Positions 134 through 62,489 of a DNA stretch of 64,000 bases are shown in pieces. The stretch spans positions 24,899 through 88,898 of the forward strand of contig JAJYYG010000138.1 in the NCBI GenBank assembly GCA_021801235.1, read 5' to 3'. A program made the position numbers and the translations under genes. The stretch comes from Actinomycetes bacterium (lineage in GTDB: Bacteria > Actinomycetota > Acidimicrobiia > Acidimicrobiales > RAAP-2). The notes under the pieces are model-generated. The model made no database searches. It was given only the letters and a program-made list of their open reading frames with translations, and was not told where the DNA came from. Position 1 is the first letter of the stretch; each line of letters starts with the position of its first letter.

Positions 134-2437
<2,304 letters not shown>

Positions 2438-2588
2438 CCTTCCATGCTATTCGGCGGGACCGGCGAGTGGCGCATCGCCTCCCCCCTCAGGAGCAGGTCG
2501 CAGGGGCGCCGGGGGGCCCACCGCGGCGGCCCCCGCTCCGCAACGGCCTCGCGCCCTCCCGGACGACCGTGCTCGGTATCGTGTCGGG

Positions 2589-3527
2589 GTGACCGAACGG
2601 ACCGACGCGGGCCTCGACCCGCCTCCGCCGGTCGGCTGGACGCCCCCCGGCGGCTGGGCTCCCCCGCCGCCGACACGCCCGCCACAGGGAACCGGTCCCC
2701 CCGCCGCGCTGGCGGCGGCGCTGGCGGCGGGGGACGTCCCGCTCGGCGCCCAGTTCGAGCTGGGGGCGGCCCCGGCGTCGCGCGCGGACGCCGGGCTCTG
2801 GCTCCTCTTCGCCGCCCTCGGGTTCCTCGCCGGCCAGATCCTCGGCGCCGTGTTCGTGGTGGTGGCCGCCGCCCTGGCCGGGAAGGGGAACGACCTCCAG
2901 GCCATCAGCCGGATGAGCGAGCCGCCCACCTGGTACATCGTGTCGACGCTGCTCGGCCTCTGGTGCGGGTTCGCCGGCGGGCCCCTGCTGGCCAGCGGTG
3001 CCCGGGGGACGCGGAGCCTGGTGCGCGACATGGGTCTCCGCTTCCGGTGGGTCGACCTGGTGGGCGTGCCGATCGGGGTGGCGGGACAGTTCCTGGTGGC
3101 GCTGATCTACCTCCCGATCTCGCAGCACGTCCACGACTTCAACCAGCGGTTCAACGCGCCCAGCCAGAAGCTCACCGGGGGGTCGCACGGCGCCGGGTTC
3201 GTGGTGATCGCCGTGCTCACGGTGGTCGGCGCGCCGTTCTTCGAGGAGCTGTTCTTCCGGGGCGTGCTCCTGCGGTCCCTGGCCCGGCTCTTCGGCTCGT
3301 TCGGTCGGTGGGTGGGACCCGCCCTGGCCATCGTGGTCACCGGCGTCCTCTTCGGGCTCGCCCACGCGGAGTCGTTGCAGCTCATCGGCCTGGCCACGTT
3401 CGGCGTCCTCCTCTCGCTCGTCTCGTACCGGACCGGGCGGTTGGGCATGAACATGGTCGCCCACGCCTCGTTCAACCTGGTGGCGGTGGTGGCGATCGTG
3501 CACGCCGGCAGCGCCGTGCTGTCCTGA
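2589..3527 (+). CDS. CPBP-family intramembrane metalloprotease
   Basis: FFEELFFRGVLL (EExxxR) and later FGLAH motifs, multiple TM segments; in-frame GTG at 2589 preferred over upstream ORF start. Confidence 0.85.
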   Translation: MTERTDAGLDPPPPVGWTPPGGWAPPPPTRPPQGTGPPAALAAALAAGDVPLGAQFELGAAPASRADAGLWLLFAALGFLAGQILGAVFVVVAAALAGKGNDLQAISRMSEPPTWYIVSTLLGLWCGFAGGPLLASGARGTRSLVRDMGLRFRWVDLVGVPIGVAGQFLVALIYLPISQHVHDFNQRFNAPSQKLTGGSHGAGFVVIAVLTVVGAPFFEELFFRGVLLRSLARLFGSFGRWVGPALAIVVTGVLFGLAHAESLQLIGLATFGVLLSLVSYRTGRLGMNMVAHASFNLVAVVAIVHAGSAVLS

Positions 3528-3528
3528 C

Positions 3529-6030
3529 GTGACGGACCGCGACCTCGTCCCCGCCGGCCCGGCCGTGGTGATCGACGACCGGCGCGGCACCGGGAAGCCG
3601 GCGATCGCCGTCCCTGCCGGGCCGCCGCGCCGATCCCGGCGGGCCGTCGCCCGCCTGACCGCCCGGCCGGCCTGGCCGGTGTGGTCGAGCGTGGTGGCCA
3701 TGGCCGGGGTGATCGGAGTCTGCCTGTGGCAGCTCCACCCGTCGCTGCTCCTGGCCAACACGACGGCAGCGGGCGGCGATACCGGCGCCCACGTGATGCT
3801 CCCCGCCTACCTCAAGTCGACCCTGCTCCCGCACGGCCACCTGACCGGCTGGGACCCGGCGTGGTACGACGGCTTCCCGCTGTACACCTTCTACTTCCCG
3901 CTCCCCGGCCTTCTCACCGTGCTCTTCAGCGAGGTGATCCACTACAACGTCGCCTTCAAGCTGGTGACCGCGCTGGGGACGCTCACCCTCCCCGTCGCCG
4001 CCTGGCTGTTCGGGCGCCTGGCCGGGCTGCGTGACCCGGGGCCGGGGTGCCTGGCCGCGGCCACGCTGCCCTTCCTGTTCGAGCCGAGCTTCACCATCGA
4101 CGGCGGCAACCTGCTGTCCACCCTGGCCGGCGAGTTCTCGTTCTCGCTGGGCCTCTCCATCGCCCTGGTGTTCCTGGGGCTCTTCGCCCAGTCGCTCCGG
4201 ACCGGGCGGCACCGCGCGCTGGCCGCGGTGCTGCTGGCGGCGACCATCCTCAGCCACCTGGTCACCGGCGCCTTCGCCATCATCGGGGGCGTGGTGTGGG
4301 TGCTGCTCGACGCCGACCTGCGCCGGTCGTTCGGGCGGGGGCTCCCCGCGTCGCTCGCACGCCGCCGCTGGGAGAGCCGGTTCGGCTGGTCGGCGGCGAT
4401 GGGGGCGATCGGGGTGGGGTTGGCCGCCTGGTGGCTGCTGCCCTTCGCGGCCGGCCTCCCCTACACGACCAACATGGGCTGGCTCAACGTCGACGGGTTC
4501 CCCCACCTCCTGTTCCCCGCCTCGTCGCGGTGGCTCGACCTCGCGGTCGCGGTGGGTCTGGTGGCGATGGTGGTCCGTCGGAACCGGGTCGCCCTCTTCC
4601 TGGCGGTGATGGGGGGCATCTCGGCCGGGGTGGTCTGCCTCGACCCCCAGGGGAAGCTCTACAACGTCCGGTTCCTCCCCCTGTGGTTCCTCTGCCTGTA
4701 CCTCATGGCCGGGTTCGCCGTGGCGGAGGTGGTGGCGGCCTGCGCCCGCTGGTCCCGTCGTCGCCGGCTCGACCGGTGGTCGCGGGCCGTGCGCGGCCGG
4801 TTGGCGGGGGGCGCGCCGGCCGGGTGGCGCCCCGGCATGCGGATCACCCGGTTCCGCCGGCCGACATCCGGCGCCACGCCCCCCGGGGCCGTCTTCGGCC
4901 CGCTGGTGGCCCTGGCGGCCGCCTGCCTGGCGGTGGTGCCGCCGTTGGCGCTCCCGGCCTCCACTATGGCCTCGGTCGGGGTGACCGTCGGCGCCGACCA
5001 GCCGGGCGCCTGGGCGGCCTGGAACTACTCGGGCTACCAGGGCAAGCCCGACTACCCGGAGTACCGGGCCGTGATCGACATGATGGCGTCGGTGGGGGCC
5101 GACCACGGGTGTGGACGGGCGATGTGGGAGTACAGCCCGTCGCTCAACCGGTTCGGGACCACCGAGTCGTTGATGCTGCTCCCGTACTGGACCAACGGGT
5201 GCATCGACTCGATGGAAGGGCTGCTCTTCGAGTCCTCGGCCACCACCCCGTACCACTTCATCGACCAGAGCGAGCTGTCGGTGACGCCGTCGGACGCCAT
5301 GGTCGGGCTGCCCTACGGGGGGCTCGACGTGGCGCTCGGCGTCCAGCACCTGCAGCAGCTGGGGGTGCGGTACTACCTCGCCTCGTCCCCGATCACCCAG
5401 CAGGCTGCGGCCGCCGACCCGGCGCTGACCCTGCTGGCGTCGACCGGTCCGTGGAAGACCGTCTACAACGGCGCCGAGCTGGACACGACCTGGAAGGTGT
5501 ACCGGGTGGCCGGCTCCTCCCTCGTCCAACCCCTGTCGGCCCGACCGGTGGTGTGGAAGGGGGTCGGCGCCGCCCAGCACCAGTGGATGGCTCCCTCGCT
5601 GGCCTGGTACGACACCCCCTCCCGTTGGGACGTGGTCCCCGCCGCCGCCGGCCCGGCCTCCTGGACGAGGGTGCGTATCGGCGACCCCTCGCCGCCGGTG
5701 GTGCGGGAGCCGGCCACCACCGTGTCGGATGTCCGCCAGTCCGACAGCGGCGTCTCCTTCCACGTCGACCGCACCGGCACGCCGGTGGAGGTCAAAGTGT
5801 CCTACTTCCCGAACTGGAAGGCGGTGGGGGCGCAGGGCCCGTGGCGGGTCGCCCCGAACCTGATGGTGGTCGTCCCGACGAGCCACGACGTCTCCCTGGT
5901 CTACGGGAGCACGCCCGCCGACCGTGCCGGGTGGATGCTGACGGCGGTGTCGGTGGCCGCCGCGCTGGCGCTCGGGATCTGGGGCTCGTTGGCCCGACGT
6001 CGACGGCGGCGGGCGGGTTCCGCCCGCTGA
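3529..6030 (+). CDS. Large polytopic membrane protein, YfhO/6-pyruvoyl-tetrahydropterin synthase-related membrane family
   Basis: 833 aa with many TM helices, GGDTGAHV..YPLPGLL.. type N-terminus, C-terminal extracytoplasmic domain. Confidence 0.6.
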   Translation: MTDRDLVPAGPAVVIDDRRGTGKPAIAVPAGPPRRSRRAVARLTARPAWPVWSSVVAMAGVIGVCLWQLHPSLLLANTTAAGGDTGAHVMLPAYLKSTLLPHGHLTGWDPAWYDGFPLYTFYFPLPGLLTVLFSEVIHYNVAFKLVTALGTLTLPVAAWLFGRLAGLRDPGPGCLAAATLPFLFEPSFTIDGGNLLSTLAGEFSFSLGLSIALVFLGLFAQSLRTGRHRALAAVLLAATILSHLVTGAFAIIGGVVWVLLDADLRRSFGRGLPASLARRRWESRFGWSAAMGAIGVGLAAWWLLPFAAGLPYTTNMGWLNVDGFPHLLFPASSRWLDLAVAVGLVAMVVRRNRVALFLAVMGGISAGVVCLDPQGKLYNVRFLPLWFLCLYLMAGFAVAEVVAACARWSRRRRLDRWSRAVRGRLAGGAPAGWRPGMRITRFRRPTSGATPPGAVFGPLVALAAACLAVVPPLALPASTMASVGVTVGADQPGAWAAWNYSGYQGKPDYPEYRAVIDMMASVGADHGCGRAMWEYSPSLNRFGTTESLMLLPYWTNGCIDSMEGLLFESSATTPYHFIDQSELSVTPSDAMVGLPYGGLDVALGVQHLQQLGVRYYLASSPITQQAAAADPALTLLASTGPWKTVYNGAELDTTWKVYRVAGSSLVQPLSARPVVWKGVGAAQHQWMAPSLAWYDTPSRWDVVPAAAGPASWTRVRIGDPSPPVVREPATTVSDVRQSDSGVSFHVDRTGTPVEVKVSYFPNWKAVGAQGPWRVAPNLMVVVPTSHDVSLVYGSTPADRAGWMLTAVSVAAALALGIWGSLARRRRRRAGSAR

Positions 6031-51021: not shown

Positions 51022-52800
<1,779 letters not shown>

Positions 52801-53810: not shown

Positions 53811-54866
53811 CTACCCCTTCGTGGCCGGTGCGGGCCCGCCGGCCAGAACCGTCACGAAGTCACGGGTCCACCCCGACTGGTACTGGTCGGCCGGCCGGTT
53901 CTGCCCGGGGACCCCGGCGGACAGCGGCCCGCCGGGCACCGCGGCGAACGCCAGCTGCACCCACTCGGGATTGATGTCGAGCTGCATGGCGTCGACGACG
54001 CCGCAGTCGATCAAGGCGTTGGCCAGGTCGGACGGGACCGCCTGCATCGACGCGGCATAGAGGAGGTCGCCGGCGGCGTCCTCTCCGAGGGCGCTCCGTG
54101 CCACCACGCTCCCACCGCCGAGCGTCGCTCCCCAGGCCGCGATGTCGGCGATCTGCGGGCTCGCCACCCCGCCGACCACCAGCGGGGCCAGGTTCTGGCG
54201 GACGCTGGCCACCGGCTCGCCGGCGAGAGGGAGGCCCTGTCCCCAGACGCCCACGTGTGCCGCGCCGTTGGTGTCGATCACCAGGCTGGCGTCACCGGTG
54301 ACCAGCGGGACCAGCGTGGTGCCGGCCACTTCGAACCCACCGGCGCCAGTCGACGACTCGAACCCACCGTTGAACGCCGCCACGAGGATCGGGGCTTCGG
54401 CGGGCCCGATGGCGGCCCCGTTGTCGGGCCCGATGGCGGCCGTCCCCGTCGGCGGGTCGGTGCTGCCGACGTGCAGGTTGTAGTGGACCTTGCCGGCGCG
54501 GAACCGGTAGACGGTCACCACGTGCCCGTCCGCTTCGGTGAAGGTTTGCTCGTCGACGGCGACGGAACCGCCCGCGGTGCTGACCGGGGTCCACCCGGGC
54601 TGGTCGGTGGTGGTCGTGGTGGCGGGGACGGTGGTGGTGGTCGCCGGAGCGGGACGTCCTGTCGTGGCCGTCGGACCCCCGGCCCCCCTCGAAGACGAGG
54701 TGGTGCGGTGCGCGCCGGTCCCCGCGGCCGAGGGCGAACTCCCGCAGGCGGTGAGGAGCGCTGCCGCCAGCAGCGCCGATGCGAGCATCGCAGCGGAGAC
54801 CCTGGAGGTGCGCGGTCGACCGGTGTCCCGTCGTCGCCGGTGGGAGGGTCGGGAGCCGGGTTCCAT
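53811..54866 (-). CDS. Lipoprotein with phosphodiester glycosidase (NAGPA-like) domain
   Basis: Lipobox LLTACG; AFNGGF, ALIDCGVVDAMQLDIN. Confidence 0.75.
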   Translation of the reverse strand: MEPGSRPSHRRRRDTGRPRTSRVSAAMLASALLAAALLTACGSSPSAAGTGAHRTTSSSRGAGGPTATTGRPAPATTTTVPATTTTTDQPGWTPVSTAGGSVAVDEQTFTEADGHVVTVYRFRAGKVHYNLHVGSTDPPTGTAAIGPDNGAAIGPAEAPILVAAFNGGFESSTGAGGFEVAGTTLVPLVTGDASLVIDTNGAAHVGVWGQGLPLAGEPVASVRQNLAPLVVGGVASPQIADIAAWGATLGGGSVVARSALGEDAAGDLLYAASMQAVPSDLANALIDCGVVDAMQLDINPEWVQLAFAAVPGGPLSAGVPGQNRPADQYQSGWTRDFVTVLAGGPAPATKG

Positions 54867-54909: not shown

Positions 54910-55959
54910 CTATGGACGGCGCGAGGCGGCCGGGCGCCGCCCGGACCGCCGGCCGCCCGGAGGCGGACGGTCCCCGGCGCCCACCGCCCGGGACATCGGG
55001 CTCTCGAGGTCGCGGGCCATCCGGCGGAGCAGCGAGCGGACGACCACCTGGGTCAGGTGGGCGGTCGTCTGGTCGTCGGGGCCTGCTTCTCCGGATCGCT
55101 CCGGCGGGCGGAGGCGCCCGCTCAGCTTGACCTCGGTCCGTTGCGGGTCGACGGGGGTCGCCCGGAGCACCACGTCGGCGTGCGACGTGGTGCCGCCGGG
55201 TCCGACCCCCTCCCACGAGAGCGTGTAGGCCACCGTTCCCCTGGCGTCCCCGTCCGATGCGTCGTCACCCGTGGCGCCATCCGACCCGGGGGCCGACGCC
55301 ACCCGGGTGATGCAGGTGGCCTGCACCTGCACGGGGGACCACGGGGGGCCTCCCGCGTCCAGGCCGGCCCGCAGCGCGTCGGCCTCCTGGTAGGCCTCCT
55401 CGATCGAACGCCCCATGCGGTCCTCGTGCTGCAGGCAGTCGGCAATGGACTCGATCGCCGCCTCGACGTAGACCCAGTCCTCCACCGGGACGCTCGAGCG
55501 CCCGTGACGGTGGGAGTCCGGCACGGGCCCGGCCCGGCCAAGCTCGATGTCGATGTCGCGGTTGGCCAGGTCGGCGAGGCTGGTCTCCCCGAGGACGCCC
55601 CGCAGGGCATCGGTCGCCGCCCGCCAGGTCTCGTGCAGCGGGCAGACGTCGTCCCACCGGCACGGTCCGTCGCCGAGTGCGCACCGCTCCGCCCGTAGGG
55701 GGCCCTCACCGGCCTCCACCACTTCCACCAGCGGGATCTCCTCGGGGGGTCGGGACAGGCGGTACCCGCCGTCCTTGCCCGCCTTGGACGTGGCCAGACC
55801 CGCCTTCACCAGGTCGGCCAGGATCTGCGAGGCGAAGGTCTGGGGCACGCCCATCTCGGCGACGACCTCGCGGATCTTGCGCGGCTCCCCGCCCGGCCAG
55901 GCCCGGGCCAGGGCCAACGCCGACCGGACCACGTAGTCGCCCCGCTTCGACAATGTCAT
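54910..55959 (-). CDS. Rrf2-family regulator with Cys cluster and long C-terminal extension
   Basis: MTLSKRGDYVVRSALALARA...TFASQILADLVKAGL..KAGKDGGYRLSRPPEEI; Cys-x6-Cys-x5-Cys (CALGDGPCRWDDVC). Confidence 0.88.
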   Translation of the reverse strand: MTLSKRGDYVVRSALALARAWPGGEPRKIREVVAEMGVPQTFASQILADLVKAGLATSKAGKDGGYRLSRPPEEIPLVEVVEAGEGPLRAERCALGDGPCRWDDVCPLHETWRAATDALRGVLGETSLADLANRDIDIELGRAGPVPDSHRHGRSSVPVEDWVYVEAAIESIADCLQHEDRMGRSIEEAYQEADALRAGLDAGGPPWSPVQVQATCITRVASAPGSDGATGDDASDGDARGTVAYTLSWEGVGPGGTTSHADVVLRATPVDPQRTEVKLSGRLRPPERSGEAGPDDQTTAHLTQVVVRSLLRRMARDLESPMSRAVGAGDRPPPGGRRSGRRPAASRRP

Positions 55960-55987
55960 GTTCACAACACAAAGTATATCCGAGGAC

Positions 55988-56016
55988 TTGACGTTGTGAA
56001 GAGAAACTTTTACTAT
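55988..56016 (+). promoter_or_regulatory. Sigma-A/70-type promoter TTGACG-N17-TACTAT
   Basis: -35 at 55988-55993, -10 at 56011-56016, 17-nt spacer. Confidence 0.75.
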
Positions 56017-56025
56017 CTTAGTAAA
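56009..56025. promoter_or_regulatory. Operator-like palindrome TTTACTA-TCT-TAGTAAA overlapping the -10 box
   Basis: Perfect 7-bp arms. Confidence 0.7.
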
Positions 56026-56070
56026 CGTGTAGTGAGTCACTATGAGCGAGAGCCGCAGGAGGAGACGAGC

Positions 56071-57651
56071 ATGACGATCCTGGCGCCACCCGAAGGACCA
56101 CCGGCCGCCGACGAGCCCCCGGGCCTTCCCGACCCGGTCCCCGTCGCCGTCCACTTCCGCCCGCCCCGGCGCGACGGGATGGAGGAGCGCTTCTCGGCCA
56201 CCGATCCGGATCGGAGCTGGGACCTGGCCCGGCATCCCCGGGTGGCCCGGCTGCTCCGGGACCGGAAGCTGCAGTTCCTCCTGATCCTCCCGAACCAGCT
56301 GATCTTCTGGCTGGTCATCATGCTCGGGCTCCTGGGGACGGTCGTCCCCGGACTGAACTTCGGGACGGCGATCACCTGGTACATCTGGTTCTGCCTGGTG
56401 TTCGTGATGATGGCCGTGGTCGGGCGGGCCTGGTGCGCCATGTGCCCCTTCGGTGGCTTCGCCGAGTGGATCCAGCGCCGGACCTTCTGGCAGCGGACCC
56501 AGAAGACCCTCGGCCTGGGCCGCAAGTTCCCCGAGCCGCTCGCCCGCTACGGCCTGATCCTCTCGGTCGGCTCGTTCATCCTCCTCACCTGGATCGAGGA
56601 GTTCTTCAACATCGCGGGACCGGGGAACCCGGCGGCCACCAGCCTGATGGTCCTCGGCATCGTCTCGTCCGCGCTGATCTTCTTCCTGGTCTTCGAGCGC
56701 CGCACCTTCTGCCGGTACGTGTGCCCCCTCTCCGGCCTGATCGGCTCGGTCGGGGCGATGGGGACCGGCGCCGGGTTCCGGACGCGCGACCGCGAGGTGT
56801 GCGTCGACTGCCAGACCAAGGACTGCATGCGGGGCGGTGACGACGGGTTCGGGTGCCCTTGGTACACCTGGCCCGGCAGCGCGGACTCCAACCTGACCTG
56901 CGGGCTGTGCACCGAGTGCTACAAGGCCTGCCCCTCGGACAACATCGGGCTCTTCGTGCAGCCGCCGCTCACCTCGGTGGTGGCACCGACCCGCCGCCGG
57001 GCGGACGTCGCCTGGGCGGTGGCGCTCCTGTGGGGGCTGGTGCTCTTCCAGCAGGTCAACGCCACCAACGTCTACGCCAGCGTGGACGGTTGGCTGACCG
57101 GCATCACCCACATCCGCTACCCCAACCCGATCGACTACCTCGGGCTCATCGGGCTGTTCGCCCTGGCGTTCGCCGGGATCGGCTGGGTCCTGTCCCAGGC
57201 GTTCGGCCGGTCGGACCTCCCGCCGTCCTCCCCGGCGGCCAGCCGGTCGTTCGTGGACCGCACCAGCCGCTTCCGGTCGTTCTTCGTGCCGCTCGCCTAC
57301 GGGGTCATCCCGGTGGTGGGTGCCGACTACTTCGCCCGCCAGCTCCCGAAGTTCTTCAAGCACGCCTCCCGGATCGTGCCGTCGGTCGGTGCGTGGTTCG
57401 GGCACGGGTCCGTCCACTCCACCCTCTACAACACCCGGATGCTGTCCAACCCCGAGATCGTGGCCGTGCAGATCGCGGTGATCGGGCTCGGCACCGTGGC
57501 GGCGCTGTGGGCCACCTGGAAGATCGCCGGTCGGGACCTGGTCCCGGTGGCGTCCCACCCGGTCGGGGCGCGGGTGGCCACGCTCGGTGTGGTCCTCGGC
57601 TTCGGGGTCCTCGCCAGTGTCCTCTACGTGATCATGCACGCGGCGTCGTGA
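56071..57651 (+). CDS. Membrane-bound 4Fe-4S polyferredoxin (NapH/CcoG/NosR-C-terminal-like)
   Basis: Several TM helices; Cys motifs CAMCPFGG, CRYVCPLSG, CVDCQTKDC, CGLCTECYKACP; SD aggagg. Confidence 0.85.
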   Translation: MTILAPPEGPPAADEPPGLPDPVPVAVHFRPPRRDGMEERFSATDPDRSWDLARHPRVARLLRDRKLQFLLILPNQLIFWLVIMLGLLGTVVPGLNFGTAITWYIWFCLVFVMMAVVGRAWCAMCPFGGFAEWIQRRTFWQRTQKTLGLGRKFPEPLARYGLILSVGSFILLTWIEEFFNIAGPGNPAATSLMVLGIVSSALIFFLVFERRTFCRYVCPLSGLIGSVGAMGTGAGFRTRDREVCVDCQTKDCMRGGDDGFGCPWYTWPGSADSNLTCGLCTECYKACPSDNIGLFVQPPLTSVVAPTRRRADVAWAVALLWGLVLFQQVNATNVYASVDGWLTGITHIRYPNPIDYLGLIGLFALAFAGIGWVLSQAFGRSDLPPSSPAASRSFVDRTSRFRSFFVPLAYGVIPVVGADYFARQLPKFFKHASRIVPSVGAWFGHGSVHSTLYNTRMLSNPEIVAVQIAVIGLGTVAALWATWKIAGRDLVPVASHPVGARVATLGVVLGFGVLASVLYVIMHAAS

Positions 57652-57665
57652 GCCAGAAGGAGCCA

Positions 57666-59912
57666 ATGATGACTGTCCTCGACATCCCCACCCACGGCGT
57701 GTCCTCCGATGCGTCCCCCCATGTGCAGGTCCTGACCGACCGGTGCGCCGGCTGCCAGGAGTGCTCGGTCCGGTGCCCCACCGGGGCCATCACCCTCGAC
57801 GCGGAGACCTGGACGGTGCTCGCCGACGACGCGGCCTGCGTCGGCTGCCGCCAGTGCGTCCGGACCTGCCCGTTCTCGGCGATCACCGTGGACGGCCCCG
57901 TCCTGGTGGAGCCGAGGGTGCAGCTGAGCCAGCACCACCCCGAGCACCTGCTGGCCGACCGGACCGAGACCCGTACCGGCATCGGATCGTGGGCGGAGGC
58001 GCTGGCCGAAGCGGCCCGCTGCCTCGACTGCCCCGACCCGACCTGCGTCCGCGGCTGCCCGGCCCACAATGACATCCCGGGGTTCATCCGGTCCATCCGG
58101 GCCGGCGACCTCGATCAGGCGCACGAGGTGCTGCGACGGACGAGCGTCCTCCCGGACATCTGCTCACGCGTGTGCGACCAGGCTGTCCAGTGCGAAGGGG
58201 CCTGCACCTGGTCGCTGGGTGATTCGGTCCCGGTCGCCATCGGAGCGCTCGAGCGGTTCATCTGCGACAACGCTCCGGTCCCCGGGTTCGACCAGGTGGG
58301 GACCGCGGCGGCCGGCATGGAGGTGGCCGTGGTCGGGTCGGGGCCTGCCGGGATCGGTGCCGCGGCCGAACTGGTCGCCGCCGGCGCCTCGGTGACGGTC
58401 TACGAGCGGGACGACGAGCCGGGCGGGCTGCTGCGGTGGGGGATCCCCGACTTCACGCTCCCGGACGCGCTGGCACGCCGGCCCTGGGACGTGCTGACCG
58501 CGGCGGGGGTCGACCTGCGGCTCGGGCATCCCATCGCCGAGGCAGAGGTCGCCGAGCTCAACGGGCACTACGACGCGGTGGTGGTGGCCGCCGGTGCCTC
58601 GATGCCCCTTCGGCTCCCGGTCGGCGGCGCCGAGCTCGACGGAGTCTGGGACGCCACCCGGTTCCTCAACGAGGCGCATGCGGCGCTGGCCGGGGGAGCG
58701 GGTCTCGACGTGCTGCGCCGGCTGCCCGCCACCGGGTCGGGCATGTCCGGGACGCCGGGCGGAGACACGGACGGCGCGGACGGTCCCACCGTCCTCGTCC
58801 TCGGGGCCGGGAACACCGCCATGGACGTGGCCCGGAGCGCCCGCCGGATGGGCGCCCGCGCCATCTGCGTGGACTGGATGGACCGCCGGTTCGCTCCCGT
58901 ACGGCCCGACGAGCTGGAGGAGGCGGCCGCCGAGGGGGTGGACGTCCGGTTCTCGACCACCCTCGAGCGGTTGGAGGGGGAGGACGGCCGGGTGGCCGTC
59001 GCCCACCTCGCCCGTACCCGCCAGGAGTCGGCGGGGGAGCGTCCCGAGGTCGTGGCGGGTCTGGGCGTCGCCGAGCATGTCGACCTGGTGGTGATGGCCA
59101 TGGGGTACCGCATCGTCCCCGAGCTGGTCGAGTCGGTCGGCGGCGTGCCGGTCTCGAAGTCGGTGGGCGGCGTGCCCGACCGCCGGTGGCAGGGGAGCGG
59201 CATCCTGGCCAACACGGCCCCGGAGTTCGCCCGCCATCAGCCGGTCGGGAAGCTGGCCATCGGGCGTGAGCACGCAAGGGTGGTCGCCGGACTGGCCCGT
59301 CAGGACCGGGTGTGGGTGGCCGGCGACGCCCTGGTCGGTCCGTCCACCGTGGTCGAAGCCATGGCCCAGGGGAAGCACGCCGCCGAGGCGATCGTCCACC
59401 ACCAGCCCCGCCGGCCCGGGCACGGGGAGCGGGCGCTGGCCCGGGTGCTGGTGGCGGTGGAGAGCCGCAGCGGCACCACCGCCCGATGTGCGCGGCAGCT
59501 CGCCGAGGCGATCTCCGGGCGCAGCGCCCCCGAGGCGGGCGAGGCCGGACCGGAGGCGGAGGTGCGGGTGCTGCCGATCGACAAGGTGGGGGTCGCCGAG
59601 CTGGCCTGGGCCGACGCCCTGGTGGTGGGGAGCTGGGTCGAGGGCCTGGTGGTGGCCAAGGTCGGTCCGGCCCGCGCCACCCGCTCGTGGCTGGCGGCGC
59701 TGCCGCCCCTGGCCGCCATGCCGGTGGCGCTGTTCTGCACCTATGCGGTGTCGCCGGGTGGCACGTTGGCGGCGATGCGGGCCGAGGTCGAGGCGCACGG
59801 CGGGCAGGTGGTGGTGGAAGAGGCGATCTCGCGTCGCCAGGCGTCGCGCTCCGAGCCGCCTTCCGGCATCGCCCGGCTCGCGGCCGGCCTGGCGGGTGAC
59901 CCGGCTTCGTAG
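57666..59912 (+). CDS. Fusion of 2[4Fe-4S] ferredoxin, GltD/NfnB-like FAD-NAD(P) oxidoreductase and flavodoxin-like domain
   Basis: CAGCQECSVRCP and CVGCRQCVRTCP; CLDCPDPTCVRGCPAHNDIPGFI; VVGSGPAGIGAA, GAGNTAMDVARSARRMGA, VAGDALVGPSTVVEAMAQGKHAA; LVAVESRSGTTARCARQLAEAI flavodoxin P-loop. Confidence 0.85.
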   Translation: MMTVLDIPTHGVSSDASPHVQVLTDRCAGCQECSVRCPTGAITLDAETWTVLADDAACVGCRQCVRTCPFSAITVDGPVLVEPRVQLSQHHPEHLLADRTETRTGIGSWAEALAEAARCLDCPDPTCVRGCPAHNDIPGFIRSIRAGDLDQAHEVLRRTSVLPDICSRVCDQAVQCEGACTWSLGDSVPVAIGALERFICDNAPVPGFDQVGTAAAGMEVAVVGSGPAGIGAAAELVAAGASVTVYERDDEPGGLLRWGIPDFTLPDALARRPWDVLTAAGVDLRLGHPIAEAEVAELNGHYDAVVVAAGASMPLRLPVGGAELDGVWDATRFLNEAHAALAGGAGLDVLRRLPATGSGMSGTPGGDTDGADGPTVLVLGAGNTAMDVARSARRMGARAICVDWMDRRFAPVRPDELEEAAAEGVDVRFSTTLERLEGEDGRVAVAHLARTRQESAGERPEVVAGLGVAEHVDLVVMAMGYRIVPELVESVGGVPVSKSVGGVPDRRWQGSGILANTAPEFARHQPVGKLAIGREHARVVAGLARQDRVWVAGDALVGPSTVVEAMAQGKHAAEAIVHHQPRRPGHGERALARVLVAVESRSGTTARCARQLAEAISGRSAPEAGEAGPEAEVRVLPIDKVGVAELAWADALVVGSWVEGLVVAKVGPARATRSWLAALPPLAAMPVALFCTYAVSPGGTLAAMRAEVEAHGGQVVVEEAISRRQASRSEPPSGIARLAAGLAGDPAS

Positions 59913-60048
59913 TGGATCCGGGGCGGCCGGCCGGGTGGGCGGCGGCGACGGGCCCGGGTCAGACTGGGCCCGCCGGACCGGGTGAACGGATGCGAGGGCT
60001 GCCTCGCCCGGACCCCGGCCGGCATGCCCCCCGAACGAAAGGCCCGTG

Positions 60049-61296
60049 ATGCCCTACGAGTTCACCGAGCACGGTCTGGCGGTGCGAGAGGCCGTCGCCC
60101 AGTTCATGCGCGAGCACGTCTACCCGAGCGAGGAGACCTACTACGCCCAGCTGGCGGACCTCGGTCCCGACGGTCATCCGGCGGTGCTGGACGTCTTGAA
60201 GTCGAAGGCGCTCCAGAGGAACCTCTGGAACCTCTTCCTCCCGGATCTCCAGCCCGGCGACCCCGGCATCCGGCTGTCCAACCTCGACTACGCGCCGATC
60301 TCGGAGATGCTGGGCGCCGTCCCGTTCGCGTCCGAGGCGCTCAACTGTGCGGCCCCCGACACCGGGAACATGGAGATCCTCAACCTCTACGGCTCCGACC
60401 GGGTCAAGGAGCGTTGGCTGACCCCGCTGCTGGAGGGGGAGATCCGGAGCGCCTTTTCGATGACCGAGCCGGACGTGGCCTCGTCGGACGCCGCCAACAT
60501 CGGACTGACCATGGAGCGCGACGGCGACTCCTATGTCCTGAACGGCCGCAAGTGGTTCAGCTCCGGGGCCCGCTCCGAGCGCTGCAAGGTCCTCATCGTC
60601 ATGGGCAGGAGCAACCCGACGGCGGCACGCCACCGCCAGCACTCGATGATCGTGGTCCCCAAGGACACGCCCGGCGTGTCGTTGGGGATGGATCCACACG
60701 TCTTCGGGTACTCGGAAGCGGGCGGGCACCCCGAGGTCATCTACCGGGACGTCCGGGTGCCGGCCGACAACCTCCTCGGTGAGGAGGGCGGGGGGTTCGC
60801 CATCGGGCAGGCCCGGCTCGGTCCCGGGCGCATCCACCACTGCATGCGGTCGATCGGGGTGGCCGAACGCGCCCTCGGCCTGATGGTGACCCGCTCCCTG
60901 GAGCGCACCACGTTCGGGTCGAGCCTGGCCCACAAGGGGGTCATCCAGGACTGGATCGCCGAGTCGCGCATCGAGATCGACATGGCCCGCGAGTACGTGC
61001 TCCATGCGGCCCAGCTGATGGACACGGTGGGCAACAAGTCGGCGGCCGCCGAGATCGCCGGGATCAAGGTCGCCATCCCGTCGATGGCGCTCAAGGTGGT
61101 GGACCGGGCGATCCAGGTCCACGGTGCGGCCGGGGTGACCCAGTTCTTCCCCCTCGCCCAGATGTACGCGGGCCTGCGGACGCTCCGGCTCGCGGACGGC
61201 CCCGACGAGGTGCACAAGATGACCATCGCCCGGAGGGAGATCCTCCGCCACCATCCCGGCTTCCGGATGGACCCGTCGGCCGCCCCCCGCCAGTAG
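60049..61296 (+). CDS. Acyl-CoA dehydrogenase
   Basis: SMTEPDVASSDAANI, NGRKWFSSGA, RTTFGSSLAHKGVIQDWIAES, HGAAGV. Confidence 0.93.
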   Translation: MPYEFTEHGLAVREAVAQFMREHVYPSEETYYAQLADLGPDGHPAVLDVLKSKALQRNLWNLFLPDLQPGDPGIRLSNLDYAPISEMLGAVPFASEALNCAAPDTGNMEILNLYGSDRVKERWLTPLLEGEIRSAFSMTEPDVASSDAANIGLTMERDGDSYVLNGRKWFSSGARSERCKVLIVMGRSNPTAARHRQHSMIVVPKDTPGVSLGMDPHVFGYSEAGGHPEVIYRDVRVPADNLLGEEGGGFAIGQARLGPGRIHHCMRSIGVAERALGLMVTRSLERTTFGSSLAHKGVIQDWIAESRIEIDMAREYVLHAAQLMDTVGNKSAAAEIAGIKVAIPSMALKVVDRAIQVHGAAGVTQFFPLAQMYAGLRTLRLADGPDEVHKMTIARREILRHHPGFRMDPSAAPRQ

Positions 61297-61664: not shown

Positions 61665-61814
61665 CGCAACCCGGCCATCACCGTCGGCCGCATGTTCTCC
61701 AACTCGTTCGCCGGCATCGCCCCGTCGTCGGCCCCCGGCTTCATCTCCGCCCACATCGTCGGCGGCATCCTGGCCTACGGGCTGGACAGAGGGTTGTACC
61801 CCGGCATGGCAGCC
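61665..61814 (+). pseudogene. C-terminal remnant of an aquaporin/MIP-family channel
   Basis: RNPAITVGRMFSNSFAGIAPSSAPGFISAHIVGGILAYGLDRGLYPGM; NPA motif; no upstream channel sequence recognised. Confidence 0.65.
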
Positions 61815-61934
61815 GTCCGAAGCAGCCGACGTCATCGAGCCGCATGTGCGGGCTGGGAGCGACCTCGGGACCCACTGAACCGGCTCGTCGCCGGCTCGCC
61901 CCCCATCTCCTCATCGACGGAAGGGAACACGATC

Positions 61935-62120
61935 GTGCACCTCATCGCTGTCGGCGGCAGTGGCGCCGGAATCAGTGCAGCGCTCCGCGCCCGGGAGGTC
62001 GATCCCGGTGCCGAGGTCACCGTCGGCGCCGACGCCTCTCCCAACTGCTCGATCTGCGGGATCCCGTACTCCGTCTCCGGCAAGGTGAGCCACCGGCAGG
62101 CTGGAGTCGGCACGGTCTGA
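61935..62120 (+). pseudogene. N-terminal remnant of an FAD-dependent pyridine nucleotide-disulfide oxidoreductase
   Basis: VHLIAVGGSGAGISAALRAREVDPGAEVTVGADASPNCSICGIPYSVSGKV then stop. Confidence 0.65.
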
Positions 62121-62189
62121 GTCGGCAGGGTCTGAGGGACATCCACCACAAGGCGCGCCGCACCGGAGAGGATGCTCATCTTGGAGACC

Positions 62190-62489
62190 ATGGAACGGAA
62201 CGACCGTTGCCGTCACTGCCGGTCGCACGCCCCGGAGTGCAAGTCGCAGATCGTGGACCGGGGATGGATGACGCAGTTCCCCGCCGCTGCGATCGCGGTG
62301 CGCAACCTCGAGATCGTCGAAGCCTTGGAGGCACGACATGCCGAGAACGAGCGCAGGATCGGCGCAGGTCTTCCGCCGCGGACCCGACGGCGGCGCGCGA
62401 TGCCCGGTGACCCCGTGACCGCCCGGTCGGCGGCCATGACGCCGCAGATCGGACTGACAATCGCAACACGGGCCGTCACAGCCGGCTGA
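62190..62489 (+). CDS. Short hypothetical ORF
   Basis: MERNDRCRHCRSHAPECKSQIVDRGWMTQF...; lies in a decayed region. Confidence 0.25.
   Translation: MERNDRCRHCRSHAPECKSQIVDRGWMTQFPAAAIAVRNLEIVEALEARHAENERRIGAGLPPRTRRRRAMPGDPVTARSAAMTPQIGLTIATRAVTAG

Follow-up and report, generated by a model that had tools for sequence, protein, structure and literature searches.

A three-gene locus was analysed in a 64,000-nucleotide stretch of DNA, here called the window, on contig JAJYYG010000138.1 of an Actinomycetes bacterium of the order Acidimicrobiales (assembly GCA_021801235.1). The genes encode an iron-sulphur (Fe-S) Rrf2-type regulator with a C-terminal SRPBCC domain (rrf2; 55959 to 54910, minus strand, 349 amino acids (aa); Pfam Rrf2 E 1.2e-28), a membrane polyferredoxin (PFD; 56071 to 57651, plus strand, 526 aa; recognised by Pfam Fer4_5 and its Cys pattern) and a ferredoxin-GltD-flavodoxin fusion (FUS; 57666 to 59912, plus strand, 748 aa; recognised by Pfam). 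PFD and FUS share the plus strand and are separated by 14 bp, and rrf2 diverges from the pair across a promoter region of 111 bp. FUS is directly downstream of PFD in all 78 assessable loci, nearly all of them from Acidimicrobiia, and with the pair kept in this way its arrangement is not due to chance.

An earlier reading, made from the letters without database searches (the sequence-only reading), had proposed an uncharacterised, membrane-linked and co-regulated redox module. The existence and coordinates of its three genes hold on the basis of open reading frames (ORFs) and Pfam. The neighbourhood is conserved, and no NCBIfam equivalog cut-off was reached among the families shown. The domain assignments were also sound: the Cys-x6-Cys-x5-Cys cluster of the regulator is matched exactly by C93-x6-C100-x5-C106, the four Cys-rich motifs of the multi-transmembrane protein are present in PFD, and the two ferredoxin clusters, FAD/NAD(P) module and flavodoxin-like end of FUS are found by Pfam or, for the flavodoxin, by a family profile. 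The SRPBCC domain of the regulator and the palindromic operator, both described below, are additions to that reading. No description of the gene set was found in the literature. The component domains all belong to known families; their combination and the regulator are new.

The polyferredoxin and the fusion protein

The Cys motifs of PFD are C122xxC125P, C214xxxC218P, C244/247/252/262 and C277/280/283/287, and all 12 Cys are invariant in 61 of 61 homologues. Three [4Fe-4S] clusters are predicted from this Cys count. Fer4_5 scores 41.3 bits in PFD (cut-off 22) and is found in each of the 61 homologues. Judged by the hydrophobic segments and loop charges, the loops that contain the Cys lie on the side with positive charge, so that by the positive-inside rule they would face the cytoplasm. 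PFD shares Fer4_5, a CxxCP between transmembrane helices and cytoplasmic ferredoxin-type Cys motifs with the NapH, NosR and CcoG polyferredoxins. It differs from them in its length of about 520 aa, in extra hydrophobic helices at its C-terminus, in its weak NapH score (TIGR02163 25.1 against 213.05 for the NapH/MauN subfamily) and in its constant pairing with FUS; nap, nos and cco genes are not conserved neighbours. In NCBIfam, no CcoG model was matched.

Plasmid relatives of PFD have 24-31% identity with about half of the protein aligned, and are too distant to be a guide to its function. One, on a Natronorubrum plasmid (26% identity), adjoins cation-transporting P-type ATPases. On a plasmid of Aulosira laxa (L121, 7540-10254) a 904-aa protein with the annotation "nitrogen-assimilation regulator" includes a membrane ferredoxin region similar to PFD, and a gene for cysteine synthase comes next.

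FUS begins with two [4Fe-4S] ferredoxin motifs (C27-C37 and C58-C68; 57726 to 57890, plus strand, Pfam Fer4_7), followed on the same strand by a Fer4_20 domain with 8 Cys (57993 to 58274; PF14691 E 1.3e-32), a GltD/NfnL-like FAD/NAD(P) module (58314 to 59399; PF07992, Pyr_redox_2) and a flavodoxin domain (59445 to 59909; profile search against the PDB). Sixteen Cys are invariant in every homologue where the position exists, a count from which four [4Fe-4S] clusters are predicted. The flavodoxin end is under the Pfam cut-off in the single sequence. A profile of 13 FUS homologues matches the PDB flavodoxin 2fz5 at E 1.9e-9, with more flavodoxins below 1e-6, and this end is matched in 56 of the 68 homologues that have room for it.

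FUS is homologous to GltD and NfnL, enzymes that act between NAD(P)H and ferredoxin. Like NfnL, GltD and AegA it has Fer4_20 together with the FAD/NAD(P) module, and AegA likewise has N-terminal ferredoxin motifs. Its scores are well below those of the named enzymes, both for GltD and the glutamate synthase small subunit (TIGR01316 259.5 against 471.75; TIGR01318 223.5 against 482.95) and for AegA/YgfT (NF009408 216.7 against 1003; NF009451 190.7 against 1154). It differs from these enzymes in its C-terminal flavodoxin, in its coupling to a membrane protein and in the absence of an NfnS-like partner: none lies alongside, the broadly conserved neighbours being only PFD, Rrf2, a histidine kinase and a response regulator, although unlinked partners were not searched for. 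A further difference lies in the nucleotide-binding site. Alignment to 4ylf, 5vj7, 5jca and 2vdc places D403-W404 of FUS where NADPH-binding relatives have YRR, with D403 kept in 47 and W404 in 48 of 49 homologues. Under the rules for Rossmann folds an acidic residue at the YRR position gives a preference for NADH, and the D-W motif suggests such a preference in FUS.

Conservation and distribution of the module

Homologues of the query protein P0003 are present in 17 of 61 relatives, two of these being fragments of decayed copies, and in 52 of the 248 genomes sampled from the order. In a search of the GTDB collection the best 80 of 209 stretches were kept, and nearly all of these are titled Acidimicrobiaceae, Acidimicrobiales or unplaced Actinomycetes. 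Neighbouring genes were called with a simple codon-usage script, and genes were missed in less G+C-rich genomes. An Rrf2 homologue is divergent from and adjacent to PFD in 46 of 76 loci, and in 67 of 81 the distance is at most 6 kb. Two-component genes are also found near PFD-FUS, a HisKA_3 histidine kinase in 30 loci and a NarL-type response regulator in 31. The synteny on which the sequence-only reading had been staked in advance is therefore found, above all for the pair itself.

Distant lineages keep the pair, with identities of 46% for PFD and 38% for FUS in L153, and of 41% and 39% in L154; FUS lacks the flavodoxin end in both. The single-contig genome G140, which we take to be that of the iron-oxidising Acidimicrobium ferrooxidans DSM 10331, has the pair as well. 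Two species from the genus of the window (L019, L020, L037, L038; G004:C10, G002:C47) have decayed remnants of PFD-FUS next to an rrf2 homologue, with a large deletion, frameshifts and the loss of one cluster Cys. The patchy distribution is thus partly the result of loss.

Other neighbours vary. In L153 (G262) the flavodoxin-lacking PFD-FUS has a small ferredoxin gene and an FrhB-like gene after it (2289-3723), hinting at ferredoxin or F420 partners. By eye, the gene divergent from PFD is not rrf2 in some loci, where it encodes a methyl-accepting chemotaxis protein-like chemoreceptor whose C-terminal region is CZB-like, or else a protein of HDOD-like type (L075, L089, L097; L045, L050).

Around the locus in the window, an adenosylhomocysteinase-like gene (51022-52767, minus strand), a phosphodiester-glycosidase-like lipoprotein gene (53811-54866, minus strand, 43 bp after rrf2) and an acyl-CoA-dehydrogenase-like gene (60046-61296, plus strand) were recognised by eye. 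The lipoprotein gene has no recurrent role as a neighbour in the relatives. The start of an ORF at 61692-62489 resembles a FAD/NAD pyridine nucleotide-disulfide reductase (VHLIAVGGSGAGISAALRAREVDPGAEVTV) and the frame ends early; this is possibly a truncated or frameshifted gene.

The Rrf2-SRPBCC regulator and its predicted operator

The helix-turn-helix and dimerisation domain of the regulator covers residues 1-135 (55555 to 55959, minus strand; PF02082 over residues 3-133). It scores 100.4 bits with PF02082 (cut-off 30) and 101 with TIGR00738 (73.3), and its structural neighbours are RsrR, CymR, IscR and NsrR. The cluster-ligand motif (55642 to 55683, minus strand) was placed by conservation in homologues: each of the three Cys, R12 and H109 are kept in 48 of 49, and D8 in all 49. 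In the NsrR of Streptomyces coelicolor the cluster environment is made up of D8, R12 and three Cys (PMC5411485). By residue identity alone, the regulator has this ligand set, D8 with three Cys and the R12 salt bridge. Neither equivalog score is reached, with 40.8 against 182 bits for NsrR (NF008240) and 59.6 against 207.55 for IscR (TIGR02010). Because H109 aligns with the His107 ligand of IscR, besides the match to the NsrR set, the cluster may be of either the NsrR or the IscR type. The ligand set, and an operator-like palindrome on the promoter, are consistent with the Fe-S sensor of the Rrf2 type that had been proposed.

The C-terminal part of the regulator, residues about 157-319 (55003 to 55491, minus strand), was modelled by AlphaFold with pLDDT 86 and the order beta-alpha-alpha-beta4-alpha. 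Foldseek matches the model to ZhuI (E 7.2e-6 to 2.7e-5), TcmN (1.4e-4) and the CoxG-like 2pcs (6.6e-4), and also to PYL/PR-10 proteins. Pfam Polyketide_cyc2 is found in 11 of 49 regulator homologues (best 6.2e-6), the window protein by itself being under threshold. On the model and the homologues together, this region is assigned the SRPBCC (helix-grip) fold. Such a domain may bind a hydrophobic ligand, possibly a quinone. No Rrf2-SRPBCC architecture was found in the literature, where the single paper found to mention both terms deals with Streptomyces natural products. The regulator therefore shares with NsrR, IscR and RsrR the winged helix-turn-helix Rrf2 fold, three Cys and a divergent adjacent promoter with a palindrome, and with S. 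coelicolor NsrR also D8 and R12; it differs in its SRPBCC domain, its C-x6-C-x5-C spacing, H109 and an operator sequence of its own.

Expectation maximisation (EM) on 34 divergent intergenic regions gave the palindrome GTRTAGTY-NNN-RACTTGAC, present in all 34, with a log-likelihood of 290 compared with 65-82 in block-shuffled controls. Among 38 PFD promoters held out of the training, 28 are above 99% of the null. The motif tracks rrf2, which is present at 58 of 62 motif-positive and at 2 of 10 motif-negative loci (p=1.7e-6, the loci being related). Full Rrf2 sites have been described as inverted 11-3-11 repeats (PMC5015018). The TTGAC half of the motif doubles as promoter sequence; the palindrome is read as an operator because its non-promoter half is palindromic and because it correlates with rrf2.

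In the window the predicted operator is GTATATCCGAGGACTTGAC (55974 to 55992, on no particular strand). It overlaps both the predicted -35 box of the PFD-FUS operon (TTGACG, 55988 to 55993, plus strand) and the predicted -10 box of rrf2 (TATACT, 55973 to 55978, minus strand, 13 bp before the ATG). The predicted -10 box of PFD-FUS (TACTAT, 56011 to 56016, plus strand) follows after a 17-bp spacer and is covered by a second perfect palindrome, TTTACTAtctTAGTAAA (56009 to 56025, likewise without strand). An exact copy of the latter occurs in this genome only, and copies with up to 4 mismatches are found in 17 of 72 loci where about 4 are expected. The operator pattern was not useful for defining an Rrf2 regulon: at two mismatches its counts are not above the reversed-pattern control, and no extra targets are claimed. 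One further match in the same genome (G000:C64) is some 150 bp upstream of an acyl-CoA-dehydrogenase-like gene and is an unproven candidate.

A quinone-linked partner system and the role of PFD-FUS

The genes beside PFD-FUS include, in three lineages (L154 and L196; L034/L116; L096), those for an NrfD membrane subunit (PF03916 E 3.5e-33) and for a ferredoxin of the NrfC type. NrfD was counted at E<=1e-60 in the 248 genomes of the order: 27 of the 52 that carry the module have it, compared with 2 of the 196 that do not (Fisher p=1.6e-19; the Fisher tests ignore phylogeny and the counts include related genomes). Put the other way, 27 of 29 genomes with NrfD also hold PFD-FUS, and of the other two, one has a match of no more than 37% identity. 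In the family to which the window belongs the figures are 8 of 13 and 1 of 24 (p=2.5e-4), and in genus g9 the module and NrfD each have a single carrier among the genomes listed, in both cases G298. These patterns within the family and the genus reduce, and do not remove, the concern over phylogeny.

In the genome of the window, contig C118 carries both NrfD and a DoxX-like gene (G000:C118:1-3602, L210). The NrfD loci carry cupredoxins (PF13473), and 9 of 14 have histidine kinase or response regulator genes of the same family as those beside PFD. Apparent twin-arginine translocation (Tat) signals were seen by eye in the NrfC of L217 and L225. No convincing operators were found in the NrfCD promoters. 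Clusters of NrfC, NrfD, DoxX-like and cupredoxin genes, with 1-4 tandem cupredoxin-like genes containing C-x3-C and with kinase and response regulator genes, occur in L210, L214, L217 and L222-L225 and are nearly confined to PFD-FUS genomes. The NrfD subunit and multi-cluster NrfC are shared with the quinone-linked PsrC and NrfD-NrfC modules; the linked cupredoxins and DoxX-like protein are not, and no catalytic subunit was recognised as a conserved neighbour.

NrfD is an established quinone-interacting subunit. This role, the near-restriction of NrfD to genomes with PFD-FUS and the related regulators point to the quinone pool as the most likely place where the two systems meet. The link to the quinone pool raised by the sequence-only reading is thus strengthened by the co-occurrence and is not proven. 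PFD-FUS is read as a membrane-anchored unit for electron transfer from NAD(P)H or ferredoxin (flavodoxin) to quinone, with a probability of about 0.5, and probably belongs to an undescribed respiratory chain. The electron path, the quinone partner, the direction of flow, the ligand and the repression are inferred. FUS would bind NAD(P)H at its FAD module, with NADH favoured by the D-W motif, and its [4Fe-4S] clusters would carry electrons onward to the cytoplasmic clusters of PFD, the flavodoxin domain acting as an accessory carrier. From PFD the electrons would enter the quinone pool. Roughly half of the carrier genomes also have the set of periplasmic NrfC, membrane NrfD and cupredoxin, which would exchange electrons with the same pool. 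Expression would be governed by the Fe-S Rrf2 repressor bound to the palindrome over the PFD -35 box, and repression relieved by cluster damage or redox change, probably also by a hydrophobic ligand in the SRPBCC domain.

Several points weigh against this reading. PFD has no solved homologue, and its model, only moderate at pLDDT 74, has no fold match in the PDB by structure search. No His is invariant among the PFD homologues, which makes a heme b relay in PFD unlikely. The flavodoxin end is missing from 12 of 68 FUS homologues. A relative of NrfD is absent, at the cut-off used, from 25 of the 52 module-positive genomes, and the NrfD system is therefore not obligatory for PFD-FUS.

Candidate electron sources and partners were also considered. 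Pyruvate:ferredoxin oxidoreductase (PFOR) is weakly associated with the module (12 of 52 against 22 of 196, p=0.04), strong matches to NiFe hydrogenase sit in module-negative genomes, and RuBisCO is found in no module-positive genome among the 61 relatives. These associations single out no electron source.

It is possible, if unlikely, that the chain runs in reverse. High-potential donors in the periplasm, such as Fe(II) under acid conditions, would then feed cupredoxins and, uphill through NrfCD, the quinone pool, and PFD-FUS would draw on quinol and the proton-motive force to supply biosynthesis with NAD(P)H or reduced ferredoxin. The distribution centred on Acidimicrobiia with a copy in the presumed iron oxidiser G140, the co-occurrence of NrfCD with cupredoxins and the fit of low-potential Fe-S and flavin carriers to such a reduction all agree with this. 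However, G140 itself has no NrfD match at the cut-off, no iron-oxidation gene is linked, and the distribution of RuBisCO speaks against it.

A CcoG-like role in metal reduction or metalloenzyme maturation, in which PFD would pass electrons from FUS to a metal ion within the membrane or across it, to the benefit of copper proteins, is improbable. It draws on the Fer4_5 kinship, the Natronorubrum relative beside P-type ATPases and the cupredoxins of the partner system, whereas the plasmid relatives are distant and only partly aligned, the CcoG model is unmatched, and neither a P-type ATPase nor an oxidase-assembly gene is among the conserved neighbours of the module. Defence against nitrosative or oxidative stress under an NsrR-like [4Fe-4S] regulator would suit the S. 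coelicolor ligand set and the NarL-type two-component regulators beside many copies. It is nevertheless quite doubtful, given the low NsrR score and an H109 that also fits the IscR ligand position; no NO-reducing or peroxidase domain was recognised. A main role of FUS as a soluble source of electrons for cytosolic enzymes, PFD being a membrane anchor or one-electron sink, is very improbable: AegA/YgfT and GltD are the nearest named architectures, but FUS and PFD are never apart in the assessable loci and the invariance of all PFD Cys argues against a mere anchor.

Returning to electron transfer between NAD(P)H or ferredoxin and quinone, a wider and more tentative proposal is that PFD-FUS and the NrfC-NrfD-cupredoxin system may be halves of one undescribed quinone-linked chain in Acidimicrobiia, connecting periplasmic copper proteins with NAD(P)H and ferredoxin. 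Its control would lie with paralogous two-component systems together with an Rrf2-SRPBCC sensor of two inputs, Fe-S cluster state and a lipophilic ligand such as menaquinone.

In the regulator, an Fe-S sensor is predicted to be fused with a hydrophobic-ligand domain, which would be an architecture new among Rrf2 proteins. Both the protein partnership and the operator are predicted in a form that can be tested, and the co-occurrence with NrfD and cupredoxins offers a concrete route to the purpose of the chain. PFD-FUS is an uncharacterised, probably respiratory module that is widespread in the Acidimicrobiia, a group whose electron-transport chains are poorly known.

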